Assembly: GCF_002283365.1 (NCBI RefSeq)
Contig: NZ_MQWD01000001.1
Span: 3,669,951-3,733,950, forward strand
Reading direction: 5' to 3'
Origin: Rubrivirga marina
GTDB lineage: Bacteria; Bacteroidota; Rhodothermia; Rhodothermales; Rubricoccaceae
Length of the DNA stretch: 64,000 bases
Below are positions 10,297 to 59,969 of the stretch, piece after piece. Position 1 is the stretch's first letter; each line of letters starts with the position of its first letter. Position numbers and translations under genes: made by a program. Under the pieces are notes generated by a model. The model saw only the letters and a program-made list of their open reading frames with translations. It did no database searches and was not told the origin of the DNA.

Positions 10297-12513
10297 ATGC
10301 TCCGCTCGCTCCTCCTCGCTGCCCTCGCCCTGGGGGCGCCCGCCGTCGCGCAGACGTCGGCCCCGGCCGACGACCTCCCGACCCCGGCGCCGACCGAGCG
10401 CGAGATCTGGGCCACGTTCACCGACGAGGCCCCGCGGATCGACGGTCACCTCGACGAGCTCCTGTGGCGACGGGTCGAGCCCGTGCGCCTGTTCACGCAG
10501 GTCTGGCCAGACACCGGCGCGCCTGCGACCGAAGAGACCGAGGCCTACGTCGCATACGACCACGACAACCTCTACGTGGCGTTCCGGATGCTCGACAGCG
10601 AGCCCCACCTCATCCGCGCCAAGAACCTCGAGCGCGGCGGGCGCAACGACCGCGACGACCACGCCTACATCGGCCTCGACACCTACCGCGACGGCCGCAA
10701 CGCGTACCTCTTCGAGATGAACGCGCTCGGCACCCAGGACGACGCGACGATCACCGACGAGGGCCTCACGATCGACAGCTTCTCGTGGGACGCCGTGTTC
10801 CGCTCCGAGACGGTCATCGACGAGACCGGCTGGACGATGGAGGTCGCCATCCCCTTCCGCCAGCTCCGCTTCCCCGAGGGCGACGACCTCGCGTTCGGCC
10901 TCATGCTCTCGCGGACGATCAACCGGAAGAACGAGCGCGTCCTGTGGCCCGAGATCGGACTCGACCGGGGCAGCAGCTTCGCCGCGCTCGCCACGGTCTC
11001 GCAGTACGGCGTCCTCCGCGGGCTGAAGGGGATCCGCCGCGGCCGGAACCTCGAGATCAAGCCCTACGGCATCACCGGCGCTCAGCAGACCCGCCCCGAC
11101 CTCGGCCTCCCGGACACCGAGGCCGAGGTCACCGCCGACGCCGGCGTAGACATCAAGTACGGCATCTCGTCCAACCTGACGATGGATCTCACGGTCAACA
11201 CCGACTTCGCGCAGGTCGAGGCCGACAACGTCCAGATCAACCTCAGCCGGTTCGGGCTGTTCTTCCCGGAGAAGCGGGAGTTCTTCCTCGAGCGCTCGGG
11301 CCTGTTCGAGCACGGCAACGCGCGCTCGACGCAGACCTTCTTCTCGCGCCGGATCGGGCTGACGGAAGACATCCTCGCCGGCGCCCGCGTGACGGGGCAG
11401 GTTGGGCCGTTCTCGGGCGGGGTCCTCAACATCGAGACGGGGCCCGGGATGGGCGACCTCTTCGGCACGCAGTCGACCAACAACACGGTCGCGCGGCTCC
11501 GGACGGACGTGCTCCCGCGCGCGACGGTCGGCGGGATCGTGACGAACCTCCAGACCAGCGACCGCTTCAACCGCGCCGCCGGCGTCGACGGGCAGGTCCG
11601 GTTCGGAGCGAACAGCCTCGTCGACGCGTGGGCGACGCAGGTGTGGGACTCCGACCCGGACCTGAACAGCGCGGCCGGCCACGCGCTCGTCCAGCTGGCG
11701 ACCGACGAGGTCGGGGCGAACGTGGCGTTCACGAGCGTGGGCTCGACGTACGCCCCCGCGCTCGGGTTCGTCCGCCGGCAGGACATGCGGCGCGTCGCCG
11801 GCGGCGCGTTCTACCGCCCGCTCGTGTCGATCCCCGGCCTCCCGATCGTCCGCCGGCTGGCGATCCAAACGGAGGGCGCGTACATCACGGGGCAGGACGG
11901 CGAGGTCCAGACGACCGAGCTCGGCGCCGAGGTCCGCGCCGACCTGTACCGCCGCGACGTGGTCGGGCTGAGCGTCAACCGCCAGTTCGAGCGGCTGGAG
12001 GTCCCATTCGCCATCCGCGAGGACGAGATCGTCGCGCCGGGCGACTACGCGTTCGTGCAGGCCGGGCTCCAGGGCGAGACCGACTCCAGCCGCCCCCTCT
12101 TCGCATCGGGCGGCGTCGCGACCGGCGGGTTCTTTGGCGGCACGCGGACTGACCTCGGTGTCAACGCGGGCTGGCGGCAGTCCCAGCACCTCGTGCTCGA
12201 GGGCGGCCTGAATCACTCGGTCATCGACCTCGGCAACGGGTCCTTCTCGGCGACGGTCGCCTCGCTCTCCGCGCTGACAGCCTTCAGCCGGACGCTCTTC
12301 GGGCGGACGCTCGTCCAGTACGACAACTTCTCGCAGGAGCTCCAGGCCAACGTCCGCCTCGACTGGATCCACACGCCCGGGAGCGACCTGTTCGTCGTGT
12401 TCAACACGGCCTACGGCCTCGAAGACGACGCCGACCCGTTCGACCCGCGCCGGACGCTGTCCTTCCGCGACCGCGTCGCCATCGTCAAGCTGACGTACCT
12501 CGTGCTGATCTGA
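10297..12513 (+). CDS. DUF5916 outer-membrane protein with CBM9-like domain
   Basis: The 738-residue product has a signal peptide (MLRSLLLAALALGAPAVAQ), then a CBM9-like beta-sandwich of about 170 residues (APRIDGHLDELLWRRVEPV, AYVAYDHDNLYVAFRM, WTMEVAIPFRQLRF) and a long C-terminal beta-strand region with the DUF5916 hallmark VNTDFAQVEADNVQINLSRF plus PEKREFFLERSGLF. The repeated amphipathic strands and the end YLVLI suggest an outer-membrane barrel. Such proteins are abundant in Bacteroidota and their role is unknown, possibly glycan binding or uptake. It stands alone between a promoter box and a palindrome. Confidence 0.85.
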   Translation: MLRSLLLAALALGAPAVAQTSAPADDLPTPAPTEREIWATFTDEAPRIDGHLDELLWRRVEPVRLFTQVWPDTGAPATEETEAYVAYDHDNLYVAFRMLDSEPHLIRAKNLERGGRNDRDDHAYIGLDTYRDGRNAYLFEMNALGTQDDATITDEGLTIDSFSWDAVFRSETVIDETGWTMEVAIPFRQLRFPEGDDLAFGLMLSRTINRKNERVLWPEIGLDRGSSFAALATVSQYGVLRGLKGIRRGRNLEIKPYGITGAQQTRPDLGLPDTEAEVTADAGVDIKYGISSNLTMDLTVNTDFAQVEADNVQINLSRFGLFFPEKREFFLERSGLFEHGNARSTQTFFSRRIGLTEDILAGARVTGQVGPFSGGVLNIETGPGMGDLFGTQSTNNTVARLRTDVLPRATVGGIVTNLQTSDRFNRAAGVDGQVRFGANSLVDAWATQVWDSDPDLNSAAGHALVQLATDEVGANVAFTSVGSTYAPALGFVRRQDMRRVAGGAFYRPLVSIPGLPIVRRLAIQTEGAYITGQDGEVQTTELGAEVRADLYRRDVVGLSVNRQFERLEVPFAIREDEIVAPGDYAFVQAGLQGETDSSRPLFASGGVATGGFFGGTRTDLGVNAGWRQSQHLVLEGGLNHSVIDLGNGSFSATVASLSALTAFSRTLFGRTLVQYDNFSQELQANVRLDWIHTPGSDLFVVFNTAYGLEDDADPFDPRRTLSFRDRVAIVKLTYLVLI

Positions 12514-12834
12514 CCCTGGCCGCCTCGGCGCCGAGGCGGAGGGGGCCTAGCCCGCTAACGGGGCGTCGGCGGCGACGATTCGTGCATGTGCCGGACGCGT
12601 GACAGGACGCACCAGGGAAACCCGTATCGAGAGTCGGAGGGAGTGACGACGGCCCGCGTCACGTCCCGCACTCCAGACCCGACGTCGAAACCTACGCTGC
12701 CGGGAGGGCCACTGTGGTGCGTCGCCGTGTCACCCGGGCGCGTCCTCCCTCCGTGATTGTCGCCGCAGCGGGCCAGAGGTCGCCGCGGCGGGCGGACGAA
12801 CGGTCCGCGCCCCTATCCCCACCTTCCTGGCATC
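12514..12834. other. Intergenic stretch without a gene
   Basis: This 321-nt gap holds the palindrome at 12520-12539, a weak -7-like box TACGCTGC near 12690, and a small hairpin GCGGAC-gaacg-GTCCGC just before the next gene. No convincing open reading frame with family similarity is visible on either strand. Confidence 0.5.
12520..12539. repeat. 20-bp palindrome CCGCCTCGGCGCCGAGGCGG
   Basis: A perfect palindrome 6 nt after the DUF5916 gene stop; another member of the dispersed family also found after ssb and at other 3' ends. Confidence 0.7.
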
Positions 12835-14544
12835 ATGACTCTTCATGGACAGACCACGGGCGCCTACGGCAGCCCGTTCCGCACCCAGACGCTCGCCGGC
12901 GCAACGCTGGTCTTCTACCCCCACGAGAAAGGCTCGTCCGACACGTCCCGCTGGGGCTGGACGTCTCTCGACGCCCTCCCCGATGGCGAACTCGGCCGAA
13001 CGACCGTCGCCGACGACGGGTCCTACGAGGTGGACCTCGACCTCGACGGGCGCATCGTCGTGGTCGCGGCCGAAGTGAAGCGGCTGACCTACGCCCCGGA
13101 CACCGACCGGACGGCCGTCGGACTCCTCGGGACGGGCGTGATCACCGGGTCCGAGGACGGCTCCCGGCTCGCCATCGCCCTCCCGCCTCGGGCGTACTGC
13201 GACCTCCTCCGCGCGCTCGACCTGTGGCTCGTCGCCGGCCATGTCATCGACTGCTCAAACGCCCAGACGCCGGCCGCCGGCGCCGACGTGACCGTCTTCG
13301 ACCGCGACCTCACGCAGGACGACACGCTCGGGACGGACACGACCGACGGGAGCGGCAGCTTCGAGGTCTTCTTCCCACGGGCCACGTTCCGCCAGATCCC
13401 AGCGCTTCCGCCGCCGTTCGACTCGATCCTCCCGCACGAGCTCATCGGTGGGCCCGACGTGTACTTCCGTGTCGAGCTCGGCGGCTCCGTCCTTCTGGAG
13501 GAGGACCCCGCGATGGGCCGGACGTCGGGTCGAGAGAACCGCCCGAACTGCACCTACGTCGAGCTCTGCGTCGAACCGCCCGACCTCCCGACCGACGCGT
13601 TCACGGTCTGGACGAGCATCGGCACCGTCCTCGTCCCCGACTCGGCCGGGCTCAACGACTTCGACGCCGACGGATTCGTCGACAGCGGCAAGCTCGCCTT
13701 CACCGGCCTCCTCGACTTCCACGGCGACGTGGCCCAGACGACGAGCGGCAACCCCACGCGCTATCGGTTCCAGGCGGCCGAGTGGGCCGACCTGGGGACG
13801 GCTCCGGCGTACCCTGCCGACTACGCACCGCTCACGTCGGCCGAGATCACGAGCAAGCCCTACGGCGCCCTCTTCGTCTCCACCGGCCCCGGCCCGTTCG
13901 ACTTCACGACGACGCCCCTCGCGCCCAACCCGGACGCGAACGGGTGGATCGACGTCAGCCAGGACCCCAACTTTTTCCGGCCGAGCACCTACCCGATGGT
14001 CCAGGTCGACACGCGGGTGCTCGTCCCGGCCATCGACACGTCGGGGGGCGAGACCGTCGGCGCGGGGGGCCCGGTGCCGGCACCCCAACAAGACCGGCCT
14101 CGGAAATGGTCGTTCGTCCTCGAGATGATCGACGGCGGGAGTGTGGTGAACCAGGCACCGGTCACGGTCCACCTCAACAACTCGGCGGCCTACGCACGGC
14201 TCAACCTCCAGGAGCTCCTGAGCAACGACTGCACGCCGATCACGAGGGCGGGCACGGACGTCACGGTCCACCCGATGTTCAGCATCGGGCACCCGTACCT
14301 CCGGACGTACCGGATCTGGATGCAGCGCCAGGGCGGCGCCATCGAGGACATCACACAGGACGACCACACCGCCCACACCCCCGTTTGGACCGACCCCGAT
14401 GGCGAGAGCGGCACGCTGACGCACACCTACGGCGACGCGGCCCAGTGCTCGTACCGCGTGTGGCTCTCCTTCGGCCGACGCCTCACGAACGGCTACGGCG
14501 GCCCGGGCGACGGATCGCTCCTGCGAACGTTCTGCACGCCGTAG
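12835..14544 (+). CDS. Large protein of unknown function with beta-sandwich-like segments
   Basis: The 569-residue product has no signal peptide or membrane segment. Its first quarter resembles transthyretin/carboxypeptidase-regulatory-like modules (GATLVFYPHEKG, VADDGSYEVDLDLDGRIVVV, and again PAAGADVTVFDRDLTQ with DGSGSFEVFFPRATF). The middle contains DFDADGFVDSGKLAFTGLLDFHGD, like a calcium-binding loop, and Cys residues are spaced through it (NCTYVELCVEPP, SNDCTPI, AQCSYRVW, RTFCTP). I do not recognise a family. The ATG at 12835 follows a C-rich leader typical of genes here. It is followed by a palindrome and another uncharacterised gene on the same strand. Confidence 0.6.
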   Translation: MTLHGQTTGAYGSPFRTQTLAGATLVFYPHEKGSSDTSRWGWTSLDALPDGELGRTTVADDGSYEVDLDLDGRIVVVAAEVKRLTYAPDTDRTAVGLLGTGVITGSEDGSRLAIALPPRAYCDLLRALDLWLVAGHVIDCSNAQTPAAGADVTVFDRDLTQDDTLGTDTTDGSGSFEVFFPRATFRQIPALPPPFDSILPHELIGGPDVYFRVELGGSVLLEEDPAMGRTSGRENRPNCTYVELCVEPPDLPTDAFTVWTSIGTVLVPDSAGLNDFDADGFVDSGKLAFTGLLDFHGDVAQTTSGNPTRYRFQAAEWADLGTAPAYPADYAPLTSAEITSKPYGALFVSTGPGPFDFTTTPLAPNPDANGWIDVSQDPNFFRPSTYPMVQVDTRVLVPAIDTSGGETVGAGGPVPAPQQDRPRKWSFVLEMIDGGSVVNQAPVTVHLNNSAAYARLNLQELLSNDCTPITRAGTDVTVHPMFSIGHPYLRTYRIWMQRQGGAIEDITQDDHTAHTPVWTDPDGESGTLTHTYGDAAQCSYRVWLSFGRRLTNGYGGPGDGSLLRTFCTP

Positions 14545-49987: not shown

Positions 49988-50332
49988 CTAGCAGTCCTGC
50001 TCCTTGCAGGGGTCGTGGCCCCAGTTCATCAGCGAGTAGCGCCAGTTGCTCTCCTTCACGTCGGACTCGGGGCCCTGCGCCGTGTGGCGCTTGATATAGC
50101 CGACCACCTTCTGCATGTGGTCGAGGTCGCTCTCCGTCAGGTCGTCCTTCGTCGTCCGTTTGATCTCCACGATCCTCCGGCCCGAGCGGTGGCCCGTCGA
50201 CTCCCCCGAGCCCGAGTCGCCGACGCGCTTCGAGTCCTCGGTCTCGAGCCACTCTTCCAGCTCCTTCGGCTCCATGTTGACGTGCGCGCGGAACGCGTCG
50301 TAGGTCTCCTGTCGGTCGTCGGTCCAGTCCAT
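49988..50332 (-). CDS. DUF3140-family protein
   Basis: The 114-residue cytoplasmic protein shows the DUF3140 pattern: AFRAHVNMEPKELEEWLETEDSKRVG, TGHRSGRRIVEIKRTTKDDLTESDLDHMQKVVGYIKRH and the signature WRYSLMNWGHDP. These proteins are of unknown function; some are small DNA-associated-looking basic proteins. The ATG at 50332 fits the family start; a TTG at 50347 would add five residues. It is 27 nt downstream of the next gene on the same strand and so may be the last gene of the lipid-like operon. Confidence 0.85.
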   Translation of the reverse strand: MDWTDDRQETYDAFRAHVNMEPKELEEWLETEDSKRVGDSGSGESTGHRSGRRIVEIKRTTKDDLTESDLDHMQKVVGYIKRHTAQGPESDVKESNWRYSLMNWGHDPCKEQDC

Positions 50333-50359
50333 CGGGTGCGAGGGCAAGGTGCCCGCCCG

Positions 50360-50788
50360 CTACCGAACGCCTGGGGCCGCGTTCCGAGCGGGCGACGCGT
50401 TCGGGGCCTCCCCGAGTGCGCGCCGCGCCGTCACCTCGTCCCGCCACGCCCGCGTGAGGAACGTGTAGTCGAGGGCCTCCGCGGCGTCGCCGAGGTCGCC
50501 GACGGCCTGGAAGCCGAGGTCGACGGGCGACACGAACCGGCCGGGCGCACTCGAAAAATCGAGGACGCGGGCGCGGCCGAGCCCCTGGCGGTACTCGCCC
50601 CAGAGCTGCCCAAGCACGCAGGCCTCGCCGTCCGACAGGTGGAGCGAGCCGGGATCCACGCGGTCGGCCCAACCAGGGTCGCGGTCGTCGAGGAGCGCGG
50701 CGCCGCGAGCGGCACGGGCGCGGGCTGCGTCGAGGGTGAGGGCGGCGAGGCGACGCGCGCGGCGGCGCTGGCGGAGGCGTCCGAGCAT
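50360..50788 (-). CDS. Small protein of unknown function
   Basis: The 142-residue product starts with a very basic helix (LGRLRQRRRARRLAALT), then ARGAALLDDRDPGWADRVDPGSLHLSDGEACVLGQLWGEYRQGL. The segment GWADRVDPxxLxLSxxxxCVLGQLxGxY recurs in small uncharacterised proteins of actinobacteria and some phages. The second half is GFQAVGD and LDYTFLTRAWRDEVTARR. It lies 29 nt after the AMP-ligase gene. No function can be given. Confidence 0.7.
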   Translation of the reverse strand: MLGRLRQRRRARRLAALTLDAARARAARGAALLDDRDPGWADRVDPGSLHLSDGEACVLGQLWGEYRQGLGRARVLDFSSAPGRFVSPVDLGFQAVGDLGDAAEALDYTFLTRAWRDEVTARRALGEAPNASPARNAAPGVR

Positions 50789-50817
50789 GACGACGGCAGG
50801 GGTGCGGTGGCGGGAGT

Positions 50818-52389
50818 CTACGCCGGAGCGCGCGCGATCGTGCCCTCGAGGCGCTTACAGAGCGCCCCTAGATCCACCTTCGCGTTGTGCCGGCGGTCGA
50901 CCGGCAGCGCGTCGACCGAAACGACGGCGTCGATCGCGGCCCACGGGACGGCCTCCGCCAGCCCGTCGGGCACGGCGCCCTCGACCGCCACGACGCGCTG
51001 GCCGTCGATCTCCACGAACGCGGCCCGGGCGTCCAGCCGCGTGCGGAGCGCGGCCTCGACTTGGAGCGGGTACACGACGCTCCCCTCGCGGCGAGACACG
51101 GCGGCGCACCTCCCGAGGAGCCACAGCCGGCCGTCGGCGTCGAGCCGGCCGGCATCGCCCGTCCGATGCCAGCGGCGGCCCGCCACGTCGACCTTCGTCT
51201 CGGCGTCGCCCTCGCCATCGAGGTAGCCCGGCACCACGTGGTCGCCCGCGACCACGATCTCGCCGACGGCGCCCGGCCCGAGGGACCTCGCCTCCCACTC
51301 CGCCTCGGTGAACGGCCCGAGCGGCTCGCCCCACCGGTCCGGCACGATCCGGAGGTCGACGGCCGCCACGGGTGGGCCGGCCGGGAGCCCCTCCCCCGCC
51401 GCCACGCGCCGGAGGTCGGCCTCGGACGGCGCGGCGACGTGCGCGATGGGCTCGGCCTCGGTCGACCCGTACACGCCGACGGCCTCCCCCACGAGCGCAC
51501 CGAGGCGGGCGAGGAGGTCGGGGAAGACGGGCGCCCCGCCGGTGTCGACGCGGCGGAGCTGACGGAGCGCATCGGCCTCGGGGTGAGCGAGGAGCCGCTC
51601 GAAAAAGGCCGGGCTGGCGACGCACCGCGTGACGCCCTCGGCACGCATCTGACGGAGCACGCGGCTCGCGTCGACGGCACCGGGCCGGCGGAGGTCGGCG
51701 TCGGCCAAGACGGTTGTGACGCCGGAGGCGAGCGTGGCGAGGACGACGACCGGCAGCGTGGCCAGGTCGACGTCGTCGGGCTGGAGGTCGAGGGCGTCGG
51801 TGAGCGCGGCGTGCTGGGCGCCGAGGAGGCCGTGCGTGCGGACCGCCGCCTTGGGACGGCCCGTCGTGCCGGACGTGAACGTGAGGAGGGCCGGCGCGTC
51901 GCGGCCGACGTCGGCGACGGGCACGGGCGGTCCGCCCTCCCACCGCTCCGCCAACGGCGCCCATCCGCCGACGACGAACCGCGTCGGGATCCGCCGGACG
52001 CTCGCGGCCAGGAGCCGCAGCAGGTGGGCTTTCGGCGTGCCGACGAATGCCTGCGGTCTCACCCGCCCGACCGCCTCCGCCAAACGCTCGCGCCCGGCCC
52101 CAGGGTCGACGATCACCGCGACGGCGCCCACGCGGAAGACCGCCGCGAGCACCGCATAGAGCGCCGACGACACCGGCACGAGCACGAGTACGCGGTCGCC
52201 CCGTCCGACCCCCGCGGCCGTGAGGCGGCCGGCCCCGGCGGCGGCCTGGCGGTCGAGATCGGCGAACGTGGTGACGCGGCGGTGCCGGCCCCGGCCTTCG
52301 ACGATCGCGGGGGCCTCGGGCCGAGCCTCAGCCTGCGACTGGAACCTCTCGACGACGTTGGTTCCGCCGTCGCGGGCCGCGGTCGTCAC
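50818..52389 (-). CDS. Acyl-AMP ligase of the ANL superfamily (OleC/FadD-like)
   Basis: The 523-residue enzyme should activate a fatty or other carboxylic acid with ATP. It has the AMP-binding P-loop LLTFTSGTTGRPKAAVRTHG, A5-type GGAPVFPDLLARLGALVG and YGSTEAEPI, A7-type HRTGDAGRLDADGRLWLLGR, and the C-terminal Lys motif RHNAKVDLGAL. The stretch VRTHGLLGAQHAAL followed by DDVDLATLPVVVL resembles OleC-type beta-lactone synthetases, but a plain acyl-CoA or acyl-AMP ligase is possible. It starts at GTG 52389, overlapping the GNAT stop by 4 bp. Confidence 0.83.
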   Translation of the reverse strand: MTTAARDGGTNVVERFQSQAEARPEAPAIVEGRGRHRRVTTFADLDRQAAAGAGRLTAAGVGRGDRVLVLVPVSSALYAVLAAVFRVGAVAVIVDPGAGRERLAEAVGRVRPQAFVGTPKAHLLRLLAASVRRIPTRFVVGGWAPLAERWEGGPPVPVADVGRDAPALLTFTSGTTGRPKAAVRTHGLLGAQHAALTDALDLQPDDVDLATLPVVVLATLASGVTTVLADADLRRPGAVDASRVLRQMRAEGVTRCVASPAFFERLLAHPEADALRQLRRVDTGGAPVFPDLLARLGALVGEAVGVYGSTEAEPIAHVAAPSEADLRRVAAGEGLPAGPPVAAVDLRIVPDRWGEPLGPFTEAEWEARSLGPGAVGEIVVAGDHVVPGYLDGEGDAETKVDVAGRRWHRTGDAGRLDADGRLWLLGRCAAVSRREGSVVYPLQVEAALRTRLDARAAFVEIDGQRVVAVEGAVPDGLAEAVPWAAIDAVVSVDALPVDRRHNAKVDLGALCKRLEGTIARAPA

Positions 52390-53375
52390 AGCTCCCGCCC
52401 AAGCAGGGCGTAGCGCCGGATCGGCCGCCCGAGACGTCGGCTGATCCGGACCGAGTCGTTCGCCGTGTGCATCAGCGCGTGGATCGCCGACCGGAACCCT
52501 TTCGCGCGGGCGGCCTCTTGCACGGCCCGGACGAGCGTCCCACCGAGCCCCCGTCCCCGGGCCTCGGGCGCCACTGCGAGCGTCTTGACGATGATCGTCT
52601 CGACGGCCTCGCCACGGGCGGCCTGCGCGCCATCCGGGAACGCCAGCACGACGCCGACGGGCCAGCCCTCCGCCTCCGCGATGAGGACGAGGTCCGGGTC
52701 GACGCGCGCCACGAGCGGCCGGTAGAGCGCGAGGAAGCGGGCGACGTCGAGCGGCGCGTAGTACGGGTTCTCGGCGAACGCCTCGAGGAGCAGCGGGTGG
52801 AGCGCGCGGAGCTCGGCCTCGGCCTCCTCCGCGCGAAACGGCCGGAGCGTCACGCCTCCCTCCACCAGCGTGTCCACCTCGGCGCCGAGGCGGGCCGACT
52901 CGTCAGGCAGCGCGTCGACACGCGACGAGAGGTAGCGGGCGACGGGCGCGAAGCCGACGGCCCCGAACGCGGCGGCGACGACAGGCGGCGGCCACGGCTC
53001 GAGCGCGAACGGCGGCGACGGCTCTCCCCCGCCGGGCGCCGCGTCCGTCACGACGCGGTACCCGAACCACGTCGACCCGTCGATCGGCCCGACCACGTGG
53101 CCGACGCCCTCCGCTCGAAGCCGGTCGAGCGCCGCCTCCAGGAGCACGACCCCGTCCGCCTCGGTCGCCCAGTCGACGTGTCCAACCCGGCCGATCCGGA
53201 CGTTCTCGCCGTCGATGTGGAGGGGCTCGGTCCACCACAGCGCGCACGACGCGACGACCGTCTCGTCGCTCACGAGGCCGAGCACGTCGTCGGGCCGCGT
53301 CAGCGCGTACGCGGAGGGGTCCGGCGTTCCATCGAGGCCGGCGAGGTCGAGCCGTGCGTAGACGCCGGCGGTCAT
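52386..53375 (-). CDS. GNAT-family acyltransferase with extra N-terminal domain
   Basis: The 329-residue product has a C-terminal GNAT domain with the acyl-CoA-binding loop TLAVAPEARGRGLGGTLVRAVQEAA and HALMHTANDSVRISRRLG. The first about 165 residues form a second domain (VVASCALWWTEPLHIDGENVRIGRVG, VVLLEAALDRLRAEGVGHVVGPIDGSTWFGYR) that resembles a degenerate GNAT fold. It should transfer an acyl group to an amine or other acceptor. The gene overlaps both neighbours by 4 bp. The acceptor may be an intermediate of this operon, which is inference. Confidence 0.83.
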   Translation of the reverse strand: MTAGVYARLDLAGLDGTPDPSAYALTRPDDVLGLVSDETVVASCALWWTEPLHIDGENVRIGRVGHVDWATEADGVVLLEAALDRLRAEGVGHVVGPIDGSTWFGYRVVTDAAPGGGEPSPPFALEPWPPPVVAAAFGAVGFAPVARYLSSRVDALPDESARLGAEVDTLVEGGVTLRPFRAEEAEAELRALHPLLLEAFAENPYYAPLDVARFLALYRPLVARVDPDLVLIAEAEGWPVGVVLAFPDGAQAARGEAVETIIVKTLAVAPEARGRGLGGTLVRAVQEAARAKGFRSAIHALMHTANDSVRISRRLGRPIRRYALLGREL

Positions 53376-54805
53376 GGCACGAGAAACGAGAGCAGGCCGA
53401 GCGCGCTCAGCGGGCCCACGATGCTCGCGCGGTAGACCCGGCCCTCGAACTCCGTCGAGTCGCGGTCGATCGGCCCCCTCCAGCGGACGAGGATGAGCGA
53501 GGCGGCGGCCGTCACGACGAGCGCGAGCGCGACGTAGGCGCCGGTCAGGAGGAGCGGACGGAGTGGGGCCATCGGCCCGCCCGGGGCGGTGCCCGCGAAG
53601 TGATCCGCCCCGACGCGAAGCCACAGGACGAGGAGAACGGGCCCGACCGCGACGAGCGTCGCCCGCCACGCGGCCCGCCACGCGAGCTGGCCCGCGGTCC
53701 AGTTCGGCCGGGCCACCGCCATCCGCTCGACGCCGAGGAACGCGAAGGTCGCGCCCCACGCGAGAGCGTACGGAAACAGGAGGTCGAGATCGAGCGCGCT
53801 CGCCGCGATGAGCCAGAGGACGCCGACCGACGACACGCTGAACACGTTGTGCGCCGTGTGCGGCCGGCGCTTCGGGTCGTGCGGGAGCCCGTCGGCCTCC
53901 CGGGCGGCGGGCCAGACGCGTGCGTAGAGGAGGTAGACGAGCGCGGGCGGGATGAGCCACGCCGTCCCGCCGAGCGCCCACACGAGGTAGCCGATGAGCG
54001 CCGCCCCGAACACGCCCGCCCCGCCGACCGTCGTCTCCCGCCTCAGCACGGCCGCCACGCTGACGAGCAGGAGCAGCACCACGAAGTGGCCCGCCAGCAG
54101 CGTCGCCGGGAACGTCAGGAGTCGGACGAGCACGGCGTACGTCCCGAGCGGGACGAACAGGTTGTCGAGCCCGCCCCACGACACGGCCTCGACGATCGTC
54201 GCCAGGATGGCCACGATGGCCGAGATCCACAGAGCCTCGGCCCGGCCGACCGGTGTGAACAGGAGCAACGGCACGTGGACGCAGAGGAAGGCCACGAACG
54301 CGAACGCGACCGACCCCTCGAGGCTCTTCTTCCCGTCGACCGTTGCGTACGGCGAGAGCCCGTGCCGCGCGCCCGTCAGCGCCGCCGCCGGGTCCGCCAG
54401 CCCGAGCATGAGGATCGCGATGGCGTAGAGGACCGGCGAGTCGGCCGTCAGGAGGTACAGCGCGCACACGGCGATCGGGTAGCACACGTCGCCGACCGAC
54501 TGGCGGCCGACCTCGTGGATCACCCCGCCGACGCCATCCCGCAGCGCCGGGACGAACCGGACGGCGAGCATCGCCCCGACGGCGAGCGCCGCCAGGAGGA
54601 TCACGGGCCACGCGGCGTCGAACAGCCACGGGAGCGCGAGCATGACGGCGCTCATCGCCACGTGGAGCCCCTTCCGCGCGCCCTCAGCCGACAGCTTCCG
54701 CCGGAGCTGGGCCTGCCGGAGCGAGACGAGCGCGAGCCCCAGCGCGCCCATCACCGCCAGGATCGCCGCCCACGCGGGCAGCACGGCTGGGGTCAGGTCG
54801 CTCAC
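53372..54805 (-). CDS. Polytopic dolichol/phytol-kinase-like protein, possible fusion with DUF92-type kinase
   Basis: The 477-residue membrane protein has about 12-14 helices. The first half (to about residue 230) fits the SEC59/VTE5/DGK1 CTP-dependent lipid kinase group: KLSAEGARKGLHVAMSAVMLA, SVGDVCYPIAVCALYLL, GLADPAAALTGARHGLS, KKSLEGSVAFAFVAFL and the closing DNLFVPLGTYAVL. The second half begins ETTVGGAGVFGAALIGYLVWALGGTAW and RRPHTAHNVFSVSSV, which recalls DUF92/VTE6 prenyl-phosphate kinases. That assignment is tentative. The GTG start at 54805 overlaps the DUF3419 gene stop by 4 bp. Confidence 0.68.
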   Translation of the reverse strand: MSDLTPAVLPAWAAILAVMGALGLALVSLRQAQLRRKLSAEGARKGLHVAMSAVMLALPWLFDAAWPVILLAALAVGAMLAVRFVPALRDGVGGVIHEVGRQSVGDVCYPIAVCALYLLTADSPVLYAIAILMLGLADPAAALTGARHGLSPYATVDGKKSLEGSVAFAFVAFLCVHVPLLLFTPVGRAEALWISAIVAILATIVEAVSWGGLDNLFVPLGTYAVLVRLLTFPATLLAGHFVVLLLLVSVAAVLRRETTVGGAGVFGAALIGYLVWALGGTAWLIPPALVYLLYARVWPAAREADGLPHDPKRRPHTAHNVFSVSSVGVLWLIAASALDLDLLFPYALAWGATFAFLGVERMAVARPNWTAGQLAWRAAWRATLVAVGPVLLVLWLRVGADHFAGTAPGGPMAPLRPLLLTGAYVALALVVTAAASLILVRWRGPIDRDSTEFEGRVYRASIVGPLSALGLLSFLVP

Positions 54806-55866
54806 CGGACCTCGTGGACGTGGAACGCCGTGTAGAACGGGGCCTTGTCGACGGCGTGGAGCCGGTCCGCGAGCGCGTTGAGGCGGACGAGGCGGCCGTC
54901 GAGGGGGGGTCCCGGCCGGCGGTCGGCGAGGACGCTCCAGTGGGCGAGCCGCGCGCCGGGCGTGCCCGCCTCGGCGACCCGGGCAAAGAGGGCGTCGGCG
55001 TCCGCAGGCGGGAGGTACTCGAACACGTCCGACAGGTTGAACTGGGAGAACGGCGCGTCGCCGAGCACGGCCTCGAGGGGGCCGACGTGCCACGAGAGCC
55101 GGTCGAGCCGGTCGCGGATGGCCTCGAAGTGCTCGGCGCGAAGGTAGCGTGGGAGCGCGTCCCCGTGCGTCCCCGTCAGGACCCACTGGAGGTAAGGGTT
55201 CTGGGCCGGATCCGTCGCCGTCACGGCTTCGCGGACGCGTCCGAGCAGCCGGTCGGCCGCGCTCCCCTCGACCTGCGAGAACGCCGTCGGGTAGCGCGCC
55301 TTGCCGAGCACGGCCCGCGACGTGGCGACGCGGAAGAGGAGCCGCCAACGCCACGTGTCCCAATGCGCCTCGTACCACTGCCGACGGTCGGCGACGGTCG
55401 GGGCCCCGCTGAGCAGATGGCGGACGCGGAGGCGCGGGTGGGCCAGCGGGAGGATCCGGCGGCGGAACAGGCGGAAGTAGCGTTCGAACGTCCCGCCCGT
55501 GCCGATCCCAGCAGCGACCACCCCGACGTGCGCATCCCAGAACCGGCGGGCGTGGTCGTCGAGGGCCGGGCGGCATCGAGCATACAGGGGCCCCCGACGG
55601 TCGCTCGCACGGGAGCCGACCAGTTCCAGCACCTCGCCGTGCTCCAGTGAGCGGAACGCGGCGACGCGAAGGGCGAGGCAGGCGGTCTGCGCCGGGTTGA
55701 GATCGACGGCGACGACGGCGGCCGGGTCGTCCGCCAGCAGCGCGAGCGCGTTGTCGCCGGCCGAACAGATCGACAGGACGCGGTCGCCGGGGCCGACGTC
55801 GAGCGCCTCGGCGAGCACGTCGGCGTCCTCCCACACCTGCGCGTAGCGGATGGTCGGATCGGTCAT
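54802..55866 (-). CDS. DUF3419 (BtaA-like) SAM-dependent 3-amino-3-carboxypropyl transferase
   Basis: The 354-residue product has the DUF3419 pattern: QVWEDADVLAEALDVGPGDRVLSICSAGDNALALLADDPAAVVAVDLNPAQ, with the SAM-binding SICSAGDN and VDLNPAQ, then LRVAAFRSLEHGEVLELVGSR, and the C-terminal NLSDVFEYLPPADADALFARV. BtaA uses SAM to transfer an aminocarboxypropyl group to diacylglycerol for betaine lipids. No BtaB-like N-methyltransferase is seen here, so the acceptor and final product are probably different. It overlaps both neighbours by 4 bp. Confidence 0.85.
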   Translation of the reverse strand: MTDPTIRYAQVWEDADVLAEALDVGPGDRVLSICSAGDNALALLADDPAAVVAVDLNPAQTACLALRVAAFRSLEHGEVLELVGSRASDRRGPLYARCRPALDDHARRFWDAHVGVVAAGIGTGGTFERYFRLFRRRILPLAHPRLRVRHLLSGAPTVADRRQWYEAHWDTWRWRLLFRVATSRAVLGKARYPTAFSQVEGSAADRLLGRVREAVTATDPAQNPYLQWVLTGTHGDALPRYLRAEHFEAIRDRLDRLSWHVGPLEAVLGDAPFSQFNLSDVFEYLPPADADALFARVAEAGTPGARLAHWSVLADRRPGPPLDGRLVRLNALADRLHAVDKAPFYTAFHVHEVR

Positions 55867-56537
55867 GGCTCGGGGATCGGGGGGACGTCGTTGACGAAGA
55901 GCCCGACGCCTCGGTCGTGGACCGGCGCCGCCAACCGGTCGAGCCCCCGCGCGAACGGGACGAGGGCGAGGTGGCCCAGAACGAGTCGGCGACTCAGTGC
56001 GAGCGTCGCCCCGTCCGTCCGCCGGGCGTAGTCGGCCGCCCGCGCCGCCGACAGCCGAGCCGATTCGAGGAGGTGGATCGTGAGCGCCCGCCGACGGCCC
56101 ACCGCGCGCTCGCGCCTCCGCTCCTCTGCGATCCGTGCGCTCAATCGGTCACTGACCGACGCCAGGGCCTCACCACGCGTGATCGCGAGGAGGATCGCGC
56201 CGATGGATCTCGTGTCCCCCACACCGGCACGTGGAGAGGCGATCTGAGAGGGCCCCGTGTGATCCTCCGCTCCGCTCAGGATGACCGGAGGAATGGGGCG
56301 GTGAGCGGGAGGGGCGACGGCCATGTCCACCAGCTCGGCCCGGAGGACCGGGACCGGGTGGCGCGCGGCGTCTCGGTCGAGGAGCCACGCGGCCGGCAGG
56401 AGCGCCCGCTCGGCCGCGACGAGGGCCCGCGAGAGGAGGTCGGCCCGGAGTCCACCGCGGCGGCGGTAGCCGGCGCGGCGTGCGCGGTTGAGTCGGATCG
56501 CGTCGCGCAGGTGCTCGGTGAGGCCGGCGTCACTCAT
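55863..56537 (-). CDS. Unknown helical protein containing a dispersed repeat
   Basis: The 224-residue product is basic and predicted mostly helical (DAIRLNRARRAGYRRRGGLRADLLSRALVAAERALLPAAWLLD, RAVGRRRALTIHLLESARLSAARAADYARRTDG). The middle (PVILSGAEDHTGPSQIASP) is encoded by the dispersed TGTCATCC-type repeat at 56205-56286 and is typical of spurious translations of that element. The original gene may have been altered by the insertion. It overlaps the PEP-dikinase gene by 8 bp and the DUF3419 gene by 4 bp. No family is recognised. Confidence 0.6.
   Translation of the reverse strand: MSDAGLTEHLRDAIRLNRARRAGYRRRGGLRADLLSRALVAAERALLPAAWLLDRDAARHPVPVLRAELVDMAVAPPAHRPIPPVILSGAEDHTGPSQIASPRAGVGDTRSIGAILLAITRGEALASVSDRLSARIAEERRRERAVGRRRALTIHLLESARLSAARAADYARRTDGATLALSRRLVLGHLALVPFARGLDRLAAPVHDRGVGLFVNDVPPIPEP
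56205..56286 (-). repeat. Dispersed repeat inside a coding sequence
   Basis: Read on the minus strand this begins GGTCATCCTGAGCGGAGCG, continues GAGGATCACACGG and ends GGACACGAGATCC, like the intergenic copy at 18224-18306. It lies within the unknown gene of the lipid-like operon without breaking the reading frame. Confidence 0.55.
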
Positions 56538-59055
56538 CGATCCGCTCGACTCGGCCCGTGGCGCCGTCGAGGCGGACGCGGTCACCGTCGCGGAGCCACT
56601 CCGTCACGCCCGGCACTGCGACGGCCGCCGGAATGCCGAGCTCTCGGGCGACGATCGCCGAGTGCGACAGGAGGCTCCCCCGCTCGACCACGAGCCCCGC
56701 GCACGCCGGAAAGAGCAGGACCCAGCCCGGGTCCGTCCGCTCAGCGACGAGGATCGTCCCCGGCGCCAGCTCCACCCCGCGCGGATCCCGGACCACCCGG
56801 ACTCGGCCCTCGACCACGCCCGCGCAGCACCCGAGGCCGGTGCGGACGGCGCCCGACTCGGGCTCGGCAGGAGCTGGCCTGTCGGGCACCAGTTCCGACG
56901 TCGCGACCGGGCCGCGCGTCGTGAACCGGTCCGGCGGCGCCGACCCGTCGCGGTAGCCCTCGAACTCGACGCGGCGGACGGCCGCGAGGCCGCCGACGTC
57001 GAGCGACGCCGCCGTCCCGCGGGCGAGGCCGAGGAGCTCCTCGATCTCCAGCCAGAACACGTCGCGCGCACCGTCGAGATGGCCGGCCTCGGTGAGGCGC
57101 TGGCCCATGGCGAGGACGAGCCGCCGGGCGCGGCCGAACACGCGGGTCCGCTCGAAGCGGAGGTTTTCTCGGTCGCGGACCCGGTCGCGGGCGTTCCGAA
57201 GGAGCACGCCGAACAGGAGACGGCGGAGCGGGTGGCCGCGGAGGGCGTCGGAGGCGCGGGCCTCCGCCTCGGCCCGCTGGCGGACCGCGTCGGAGCCGGG
57301 CTCCCGGGCGTCGCCATCGGCGATCCGCACGGCGCGAGCGCCGACCGAGCGGTACAGCGGCGTCGGGTCGTCGGCGAGCGTCGGGCTCTCCAGCTTGAGC
57401 TCTTCGAGGCAGCGGTCGCCAAAACGCGCGACGTAGGCCGCCACGTCGGCAGCCATCGTGGGGCGGTCGGCGAGGCCGGACTCGACCGCTGCACGATCGG
57501 CGGCGAGCAGCATCTCGACCCAGGCCGGGTCGGCCGCCGCCTCACGCGCCATCGCCTCGACGCACCGGGCGGGCTCGGCCGAGATCACGTCGCCGTCCCC
57601 TGCGAGCAGCCCGCCCAGCGCTCCCGGACCGATCCACCGTTCGGCGGCCCGCTGCGCCAGCCCGAACCAGATCATGGCGAAGAAGTCGTTCACGAGCGGT
57701 GCGTCCCACCGCCGCAGGAGGGTCCGGTCGAGGGTCGCGTACGCCTCGGCGAGCGCGTCGAGGCCCATGCCGTCCGTCGTCGCGCCGTGCCGGCGGAGCG
57801 CGTCGTCGACGCGCCAGAGAAAGTCGCGGCGCATCCGGGGGAGGCGGACGTGCGCGGCGACGAGGCCGAGGACGGTTCTCGCCAGCGCGAACGCGTCGGC
57901 GATCCGCCCGGCCGACGGGGGCTCGGGTCGGAGGCCGTCCGGGATCCCGTCGCGAACGCCCATCATCCCTTCCATCAGCCCCGCGTTGAGCCGGTATCCG
58001 GGCAGCAGCGCGAGCACGCGGTACCACGAGCCGAGGTTGTAGTAGACCCGGCCTCGGATCAGCCCGATCATCTGCTCGAATGTCTCCGCCTCCGCCTCCA
58101 CGCGCGACTCAGGGACCTTCAGGATCCGGCAGAACTCGCGGTACACGGCCGCGTAGGCGCGGCGCGCGAACGAGTACGTCAGCGGCGTCGTGACGCCGGC
58201 GTAGCTCTCGACGATGTTCGCGTTGTCCCACAACCGGATCCGCCCATCAGATTGCGCGGGGAGAGCGGTGACCGGGCGGGCCTGGAGGAGCCACAGCTCA
58301 CCGTCGGCGATCGCCCACTCGACGTCCTGCGGGCCGCCCATCGCGTCGGCCGCGCTCCGGGCGAGGGCCGCGATGCGGCGGGCATCGATGTCCGAGAGGA
58401 CCGGACCGGACTCGTCGACCGACACCTCCGCGACGCCCTCCCCCGCCCTGGCGTCGAACCGGTCGGCCACCTTCTGGACGCCGGGCGTCCGGGCGCGGAC
58501 CTCGCCGTCGGCTCCGAGGCGGAGGGTCTCGGCCTCGGCGCGGCCGTCAACCAGGGCGGAGCCGAGGCCCCACGCGGCCGAGATCACGACGACGTCGGCG
58601 TCGCCCGTCACGGGGTCGGCGCTGAACGCCACGCCGGAGACGTCGGCGTCGACGATCTGTTGGATGAGGACGGCCGGCGGTCGGGTCGACCCGTCGAGCC
58701 CCCGCGCCGCGCGGTAGGCCCGGACGCGCTCGCCGTCGCCCGACCGGCGGACGTCGCGGACGCGCTCGGCCACGCGCTCCGGCGGGACGAACAGGAACGA
58801 GTCGAGCGCCCCCGCGAAGGCGTGCGCCGCCCCGTCTTCGTCGGCGGCTGACGAGCGGACCGCCACAAACGGCGGATGGGCCAGCCGCCCCAACGACTCG
58901 GCGACGGCCGCGTCCACGTCGTCGGCGTCGGGCGGGACGACGGCCAGCGGCGGGACGGGGAAGCCGAGGTCGAGGAGGCGGGCCAGGGCCATGCCCTTCC
59001 CCCCCCACGTGGCGCGGTCAGGGGCGGCGTCCGTCTGGAGATCGGGGGCGCTCAT
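56530..59055 (-). CDS. ATP-grasp/phosphohistidine dikinase, rifampin-phosphotransferase-like
   Basis: The 841-residue cytoplasmic product has an N-terminal PPDK/PEP-synthase ATP-grasp domain (about residues 1-310; TWGGKGMALARLLDLGFPVPP, VAVRSSAADEDGAAHAFAGALDSFL, VSGVAFSADPVTGD, DVEWAIADGELWLLQARPV), a helical middle domain (LWDNANIVESYAGVTTPLTYSFARRAY) and a C-terminal phosphohistidine domain with the mobile His in ERGSLLSHSAIVARELGIPAAVAV. The PEP/pyruvate TIM barrel is absent. This is the architecture of rifampin phosphotransferase and related small-molecule dikinases, so a phosphate is probably placed on an unknown acceptor. Confidence 0.85.
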   Translation of the reverse strand: MSAPDLQTDAAPDRATWGGKGMALARLLDLGFPVPPLAVVPPDADDVDAAVAESLGRLAHPPFVAVRSSAADEDGAAHAFAGALDSFLFVPPERVAERVRDVRRSGDGERVRAYRAARGLDGSTRPPAVLIQQIVDADVSGVAFSADPVTGDADVVVISAAWGLGSALVDGRAEAETLRLGADGEVRARTPGVQKVADRFDARAGEGVAEVSVDESGPVLSDIDARRIAALARSAADAMGGPQDVEWAIADGELWLLQARPVTALPAQSDGRIRLWDNANIVESYAGVTTPLTYSFARRAYAAVYREFCRILKVPESRVEAEAETFEQMIGLIRGRVYYNLGSWYRVLALLPGYRLNAGLMEGMMGVRDGIPDGLRPEPPSAGRIADAFALARTVLGLVAAHVRLPRMRRDFLWRVDDALRRHGATTDGMGLDALAEAYATLDRTLLRRWDAPLVNDFFAMIWFGLAQRAAERWIGPGALGGLLAGDGDVISAEPARCVEAMAREAAADPAWVEMLLAADRAAVESGLADRPTMAADVAAYVARFGDRCLEELKLESPTLADDPTPLYRSVGARAVRIADGDAREPGSDAVRQRAEAEARASDALRGHPLRRLLFGVLLRNARDRVRDRENLRFERTRVFGRARRLVLAMGQRLTEAGHLDGARDVFWLEIEELLGLARGTAASLDVGGLAAVRRVEFEGYRDGSAPPDRFTTRGPVATSELVPDRPAPAEPESGAVRTGLGCCAGVVEGRVRVVRDPRGVELAPGTILVAERTDPGWVLLFPACAGLVVERGSLLSHSAIVARELGIPAAVAVPGVTEWLRDGDRVRLDGATGRVERIDE

Positions 59056-59969
59056 GCGATCCACAACGCGACGGGGCCGATGAGGGTGTACAGGCCGAGC
59101 GTCCAGATGCCCGCGGCCGTTTCGAGCACGCGACCGCGACCGGGCCGGTCCGCCCACAACGCCCCGACGCCGACGGCGACGACGAGCGCCGCGGCCCCGC
59201 CCAGCCCGACGCCGAGGCCGCCCGCCTCGGGGATGGAGTCGAGGACCATCAGCCCGCACACCAGCGAGCCGGCGACGGCCGCGGCCCACGCCAGCAGCGC
59301 CCGCTTCCGCCCCCACGCCGCGCTGTACGTCTCGACGCCCCGCCGCTCGTCGGCCGACGCCCACACCTTCCGCCCGACCTCGATCACGGTCCCCCCGAAC
59401 AGGCTCACCCCGATGAGCCAGCCGACGCCGGCCGGGAACGCCGCGTCGTTGCCGAACACGTCGCACGACACGGAAAAAAAGTCGACGAGCGGGACGATCG
59501 GTGCGTGGGTCGCGAGCGTCGCGAGGGGCCGCTCGCGGAGCCAGTCGCGGGCGCCGAACTCAACGGTCATGAGCGCGCCGAAGCCCCAGACGCCGGCCAG
59601 CACGCCCAGCAGACGCACGTCGAGCCACGCCGCGAGGGCGACCTGCACGGCGGCGACCGCCAGGGCCGCACCGACCAGTTCGCGGAGCGTGACGAGACCG
59701 CGCGGAACGGGGCGCTCGGGCCGGTAGAGTCTGTCCTCCTCGGCGTCCTTCCACTCGTCGGCCACGCGGAGCTGAAAGAAGACGCCGAGCGCGACGACGG
59801 AGGCCACGACCACGGCCGGCCAGCCGGGGCCGTCGGCACCGCGCAGGGCGGCGGAGGCGCAGGCCACGCCGCCGGCGAACGCCACCACGACCGGCCCGTG
59901 GGCCAGCGGTGGGAAGCGCTCCTGGAGGTACGTCCACGCGCAGCGGACGGGCGGGACGGCGGGGGTCAT
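59052..59969 (-). CDS. UbiA-family prenyltransferase-like membrane protein
   Basis: The 305-residue inner-membrane product has about eight helices. The first Asp-rich motif is present as LRVADEWKDAEEDRLYRPERPVPRG. The second, normally DxxxDxxxD, is changed to EVGRKVWASADERRGVETYSAAWGRKRAL, with only one Asp/Glu pair at the expected place. Transfer of a prenyl chain to an aromatic or alcohol is therefore likely but the acceptor-side chemistry may differ. It is the first gene of the overlapping operon; its stop overlaps the dikinase start in an ATGA. Confidence 0.82.
   Translation of the reverse strand: MTPAVPPVRCAWTYLQERFPPLAHGPVVVAFAGGVACASAALRGADGPGWPAVVVASVVALGVFFQLRVADEWKDAEEDRLYRPERPVPRGLVTLRELVGAALAVAAVQVALAAWLDVRLLGVLAGVWGFGALMTVEFGARDWLRERPLATLATHAPIVPLVDFFSVSCDVFGNDAAFPAGVGWLIGVSLFGGTVIEVGRKVWASADERRGVETYSAAWGRKRALLAWAAAVAGSLVCGLMVLDSIPEAGGLGVGLGGAAALVVAVGVGALWADRPGRGRVLETAAGIWTLGLYTLIGPVALWIA

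Follow-up and report, generated by a model that had tools for sequence, protein, structure and literature searches.

A conserved six-gene cluster of Rubrivirga marina, often joined by an HMG-CoA reductase homologue, that may direct synthesis of an amphipathic lipid

Overlapping genes on the minus strand of a 64,000-nucleotide stretch of the Rubrivirga marina genome (contig NZ_MQWD01000001.1, positions 3,669,951 to 3,733,950; hereafter the window) form an operon, six genes of which recur together in other bacteria. They encode a UbiA-superfamily membrane enzyme, an ATP dikinase resembling rifampin phosphotransferase (RPH), a DUF3419 protein, a membrane kinase (KIN), a GNAT acyltransferase and an acyl-AMP ligase (AMPL), and are frequently accompanied by a homologue of 3-hydroxy-3-methylglutaryl-CoA (HMG-CoA) reductase (HMGR). 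Judged from sequence, the balance tips modestly towards the six genes and the frequent HMGR being a mobile biosynthetic operon for an amphipathic lipid that was not found described. The head group of the proposed lipid probably derives from S-adenosylmethionine (SAM).

Recurrence of the six-gene set is far beyond chance. A scan of a genome collection with the DUF3419 protein of the window gave at least 80 loci among the matches listed, and gene order was counted over 84. At 65 of the 84 the six core genes are grouped on a single strand; most of the remaining loci are truncated where a contig stops, and L022, L045, L050, L079 and L106 are the clear exceptions. The order HMGR-UbiA-dikinase-DUF3419-KIN-GNAT-AMPL occurs at 30 loci, the order without HMGR at 7, the order DUF3419-KIN-GNAT-AMPL-UbiA-dikinase, which is that of gut Clostridia, at 24, and one with GNAT-AMPL first at 3. 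At most loci the majority of neighbouring genes are almost contiguous, with gaps close to zero. By record titles, the hosts represent about eleven phyla (Rhodothermota, Verrucomicrobiota, Kiritimatiellota, Pseudomonadota, Cyanobacteriota, Acidobacteriota, Planctomycetota, Elusimicrobiota, Deinococcota, Bacillota and Campylobacterota). The neighbourhood comparison proposed with the original prediction, a reading of the window from its sequence, thus found the genes kept together and not dispersed among relatives. That they belong to separate pathways and co-travel without a common product is hardly credible: although three of the nine genes in the window are not conserved, this explanation is already contradicted by the near-fixed order and tight spacing of the other six across these phyla.

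Distribution of the cluster is patchy. Of 296 genomes sampled from the window's phylum, 11 gave a cluster-type DUF3419 match at E 1e-60; two of these (G236 and G292) hold an incomplete set or no gene of it besides DUF3419. Among 398 sampled genomes of Pseudomonadota it was found only in the search centre itself, the other matches scoring as BtaA-like. Within Rhodothermales the cluster is present in some members of one genus and missing from others. One congeneric genome (L107, G003:C17, 143-1728) has an intact KIN gene beside what is left of DUF3419 (about 48 residues) but no adjoining UbiA or dikinase gene; part of the cluster has thus been lost within the genus. Many host records are metagenome assemblies. 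Calidithermus chliarophilus DSM 9957 and Rhodovulum robiginosum DSM 12329 are exceptions, as is the complete sequence of a Roseinatronobacter plasmid, which carries all seven genes (HMGR being truncated by the start of the record).

The lipid model owes most to variant clusters, in which genes are replaced by others that would keep their roles, namely acyl-thioester reductase, lipid-alcohol kinase, amino-acid head-group modification and lipid export. Both L175 and L187, the latter inside the core clade, encode a fatty-acyl reductase (PF07993) together with dikinase, DUF3419, UbiA, GNAT-type and phosphatidylserine-decarboxylase family proteins; L175 also has a YegS/DAGK kinase, and L187 a short kinase and a weak match to MMPL. 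L176 combines a YegS/DAGK kinase, a PEMT-type membrane domain fused to DUF3419, GNAT and a pyridoxal-phosphate (PLP) decarboxylase. L106 encodes the ligase, DUF3419, MMPL, an HMGR-EcKL/APH kinase fusion and UbiA, with the dikinase on the opposite strand and no KIN. MMPL genes lie within the cluster or at its end in L023 and L079, and at nine Clostridia loci an acyl-carrier-protein (acyl-ACP) synthetase with a carrier domain follows the dikinase or is fused to it. The lipid-type chemistry put forward in the original prediction gains support from these replacements.

Some variants have unusual gene structures. The fusion in L176 (8073-9935, minus strand) joins DUF3419 to a PEMT/ICMT-type membrane methyltransferase, the PLP decarboxylase adjoining it, and in L106 a single gene (11110-13533) encodes both HMGR and the EcKL/APH-type kinase domain. 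At two loci of the window's phylum, L174 (13620-14195) and L173 (5638-6210), a Polyketide_cyc2/lipid-transport-type protein is encoded between GNAT and the ligase, the family being assigned from a scan of L174.

The DUF3419 protein is a predicted SAM-dependent 3-amino-3-carboxypropyl transferase, and its clade is not that of BtaA. The window protein matches PF11899 (3e-64; 218 bits against a cut-off of 28.2). Structure prediction, a check suggested with the original prediction, was run for this protein and for KIN (see below); the AlphaFold2 model of DUF3419 (predicted local distance difference test score, pLDDT, 95) shows a Rossmann fold of the SAM-methyltransferase type, into which a helical segment is inserted. 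No solved DUF3419 structure was found by sequence search. The protein had been described as BtaA-like and the family assignment stands, but identity with BtaA was rejected, as the cluster proteins fall outside the BtaA clade (100/100 in trees) and lack a BtaB partner. Could the cluster nevertheless be a betaine-lipid pathway, with DUF3419 acting as BtaA to give diacylglyceryl-homoserine lipids? Family, core residues and a lipid setting are shared with BtaA/BtaB synthesis, but cluster proteins carry the motif NLSDxFEY in place of LLDxQDWM. Furthermore, a methyltransferase gene follows BtaA-type genes in most loci inspected (a BtaB-type neighbour is present in controls L180, L183 and L190), whereas core clusters have no BtaB-type methyltransferase, either beside DUF3419 or fused to it. 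The two DUF3419 types coexist in G067 and G075, and the cluster holds additional conserved enzymes for which betaine-lipid synthesis has no need. Such a pathway is therefore very improbable.

A third, very divergent DUF3419 group is represented in L182 and L188, with no recognisable methyltransferase gene adjoining. The gene after DUF3419 in L188 appears GNAT-like by eye.

The UbiA-like protein scores 42 bits against PF01040 (cut-off 34). Its nearest solved structure in a profile search, aligned over its length, is that of archaeal digeranylgeranylglyceryl phosphate (DGGGP) synthase, a UbiA-family enzyme of ether-lipid synthesis (6m31, E 2e-6). The first aspartate motif is kept (DExKDxxxD, with D71, D75 and D79 invariant), but the second is degenerate, RKxxxxxDE replacing the canonical KDxxDxxGD. 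Because of this alteration the donor may be something other than an allylic diphosphate. The prenyl transfer originally predicted thus retains its family and first motif, but plain prenyl transfer is doubtful.

KIN, originally termed a lipid kinase, has no Pfam match. However, its family carries a CTP motif, from which we infer a CdsA/VTE5-type lipid-alcohol kinase. Motifs ExxRKxxH, RxSxG, DxxAxxxG, KSxEG and GxDN are strictly or almost strictly conserved across 58 sequences, and in the N-domain DxxAxxxG...KSxEGS and RKxxH align with CdsA and with DUF92 (a comparison set of 7 sequences). The top fold match of its AlphaFold2 model (pLDDT 89.8) is CdsA (4q2g, Z 8.7, which is modest for a helical membrane protein). 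Assignment of the C-domain to VTE6/DUF92 was rejected for want of a profile match, and some variant clusters have a short kinase without this domain. A PF01148 search of cyanobacteria gave one strong match per genome, of CdsA type.

A CTP-type membrane kinase beside a UbiA-superfamily enzyme recalls the VTE5/VTE6 phytol kinases and UbiA transferases of tocopherol synthesis and chlorophyll salvage. In an equivalent prenyl salvage, the kinase would make a prenyl phosphate or diphosphate, UbiA would prenylate an acceptor, and DUF3419, GNAT and the ligase would decorate the small molecule. The N-domain motif common to KIN, CdsA and VTE6/DUF92 agrees with this, as does the first aspartate motif of UbiA. 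Nevertheless, such salvage is unlikely: the second UbiA motif is degenerate, the C-domain of KIN has no match to DUF92 and the cluster contains no aromatic acceptor pathway, while the fatty-acyl reductases, YegS-type kinase and acyl-ACP synthetases of the variants indicate fatty chains.

The dikinase consists of an ATP-grasp domain, a substrate domain and a C-terminal phospho-histidine domain (PF01326, PF00391), with no phosphoenolpyruvate (PEP) barrel. Its best match among solved structures is rifampin phosphotransferase (5fbs). The catalytic histidine lies in GSLLSHS, H798 aligning with His825 of RPH. R629-E630 is invariant and lies slightly beyond the end of the alignment, where an unchanging offset of 37 makes it correspond to R666-E667 of RPH; in RPH this pair is required for the second phosphotransfer (PMC4844700). 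Domain layout, histidine and R-E pair are likewise those of the RedH/PigC dikinases. However, the protein scores 254 bits against the NCBIfam RPH equivalog (cut-off 999) and also falls below the curated RedH/PigC cut-offs. It differs further from these enzymes in belonging to a biosynthetic operon and, in some Clostridia, in its fusion with an acyl-ACP synthetase.

In the GNAT protein the second, N-terminal half has a conserved GPxxGxTWxxYR. The acyl-AMP ligase retains its catalytic Lys504 and is closest to curated adenylate-forming models PRK09274 (352 bits, below cut-off) and the beta-lactone synthetase OleC (207 bits, cut-off 900). It thus scores well below the cut-offs, and no OleA, OleB or OleD is encoded among the conserved genes.

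HMGR is encoded within the cluster at 36 of 80 genome-contig loci, usually directly upstream of UbiA, and is absent from the operon in the window, so the completeness supposed for the set seen there is not supported. Cluster HMGRs of other genomes keep all four catalytic residues (Glu, Lys, Asp and His) of class I HMG-CoA reductase but score below the TIGR00533 cut-off. HMG-CoA synthase is absent from 19 of 21 hosts examined, and IspH, of the methylerythritol phosphate (MEP) pathway, was found in 23 of 24. A mevalonate-pathway role for cluster HMGR was rejected on these grounds. Genus g18 belongs to the same order as R. marina; there HMGR is present in the two genomes that have the cluster and missing from the two sampled ones that do not. 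In the window's family, a longer HMGR is present in every sampled genome, with or without the cluster.

HMGR homologues were found in 27 of 60 sampled relatives, and when the window genome was tested no HMG-CoA synthase was found. The HMGR homologue at L091 (G000:C1:1729732-1730844) has an N-terminal extension of about 115 residues.

With its catalytic residues intact, HMGR could alternatively make mevalonate from leucine-derived HMG-CoA, and an OleC-like ligase could close a lactone or load an acid, giving a specialised metabolite that is soluble, for example a signal or siderophore derived from mevalonate or a beta-lactone. PRK09274 and OleC being the models nearest to the ligase, and the patchy distribution with a plasmid copy, would suit such a compound. 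Even so, it is less likely still than prenyl salvage, as two of the core genes encode integral membrane enzymes, the variants have lipid-type replacements and MMPL pumps, the Clostridia clusters and genomes tested lack HMGR, and the ligase is below the OleC cut-off.

For the lipid operon, the scheme that follows is deduced, in every reaction and in its product, from what the sequence shows of gene content and order, motifs, folds and replacements, and the order of steps is a guess. The acyl-AMP ligase would activate a carboxylic acid to a thioester, which HMGR, or the fatty-acyl reductase of the variants, would take to an alcohol. KIN, or the EcKL/APH or YegS-type kinase of the variants, would phosphorylate a lipid alcohol, and the dikinase could place a phosphate on the same or another hydroxyl via phospho-histidine. 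The UbiA-type enzyme may then join the activated lipid to an acceptor, and DUF3419 move the 3-amino-3-carboxypropyl group of SAM onto the coupled product, as BtaA does with diacylglycerol. GNAT would acylate the new amine, decarboxylases would strip the carboxylate in variants, and MMPL-type pumps may export the product in some hosts. It is possible, if somewhat short of probable, that the product is a new class of lipid that bacteria keep in the membrane or export, of alkyl- or prenyl-ether type with a SAM-derived 3-amino-3-carboxypropyl head, N-acylated in most hosts or decarboxylated to 3-aminopropyl in others, with HMGR re-used as an acyl reductase and the pathway spread horizontally over about eleven phyla.

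Several observations weigh against this proposal. The degenerate second motif of UbiA is one. The activity of DUF3419 is extrapolated from the distant clade of BtaA, and the window protein departs from consensus at near-invariant sites (F181A, F182T, G190A, D192Y, Y309H and N311S), as does that of its Rubrivirga neighbour, so its acceptor may differ. The HMGR of the window genome sits away from the operon and its long form is also present in relatives without the cluster, so the reduction step may fail here; in addition, HMGR was not found in the Clostridia genomes tested or in Calidithermus. Finally, the evidence from variants comes from a small number of genomes, metagenome assemblies among them, and is based on family names.

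All nine reading frames of the original prediction were found in the window (Table 1), and the overlaps of 4 or 8 bp among seven minus-strand genes were borne out: successive gaps are -4, -8, -4, -4, -4, -4, +29 and +12 nt, the last becoming 27 nt if the DUF3140 gene starts at Met codon 6. Pfam confirmed the predicted UbiA, PPDK_N/PEP-utilizers dikinase, DUF3419, GNAT and AMP-binding families; in the same scan of window proteins orf3 and the 142-aa ORF, like KIN, had no Pfam family, and orf3 had no NCBIfam match either. The operon is real, but orf3, the 142-aa ORF and DUF3140 have no counterpart in clusters outside Rubrivirga (tblastn), and the conserved unit is the six core genes plus HMGR. 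The Rubrivirga locus L011 (Rhodothermota) shows 83-84% identity. Within orf3, positions 56230-56290 contain an in-frame TCATCCTGAGCGGAGCGGAGGATC-like dispersed-repeat sequence, and this stretch falls where orf3 exceeds its L011 counterpart in length.

Table 1. The nine genes of the operon as originally predicted in the window, in order of transcription
Feature	Coordinates	Strand	Basis
UbiA-superfamily membrane enzyme, 305 aa, core	59052..59969	-	PF01040 8e-11; DGGGP synthase 6m31 nearest structure
RPH-like ATP dikinase, 841 aa, core; ATP-grasp, substrate and C-terminal phospho-His domains	56530..59055	-	PF01326, PF00391
orf3, 224 aa, Rubrivirga only; dispersed-repeat-like insertion inside	55863..56537	-	tblastn
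DUF3419 protein, 354 aa, core; predicted SAM-dependent 3-amino-3-carboxypropyl transferase	54802..55866	-	PF11899 3e-64
KIN, CdsA/VTE5-type membrane kinase, 477 aa, core; N-domain catalytic (predicted)	53372..54805	-	Motifs, AlphaFold2 fold match
GNAT acyltransferase, 329 aa, core; second conserved N-terminal half	52386..53375	-	PF00583 2e-11
Acyl-AMP ligase (AMPL), 523 aa, core; nearest PRK09274/OleC-type enzymes	50818..52389	-	PF00501 2e-55
142-aa ORF, outside conserved cluster	50360..50788	-	Homologue only in Rubrivirga L011
DUF3140 protein, outside conserved cluster	49988..50347	-	PF11338 7e-37; adjoins cluster only in Rubrivirga

Literature searches on the gene combination, on DUF3419 and on BtaA with UbiA or HMGR found nothing relevant, which is weak evidence as few subscription journals were covered. 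The original statement that no pathway with this set had been described agrees with the literature searched, in which the enzyme families are known and their combination and product were not found described.

If the proposal is true, annotations such as 'DUF3419', 'PEP synthase' and 'hypothetical protein' would conceal a new lipid pathway. The set spans cyanobacteria, proteobacteria and many other phyla, and six of the seven enzymes are encoded in gut Clostridia. The pathway would give a function to a DUF3419 clade, an altered UbiA subfamily and an RPH-like dikinase, and to the HMG-CoA reductases of bacteria that lack the mevalonate pathway. With Calidithermus chliarophilus DSM 9957, Rhodovulum robiginosum DSM 12329 and Roseinatronobacter sp. 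S2 as cultured hosts, it is directly testable.

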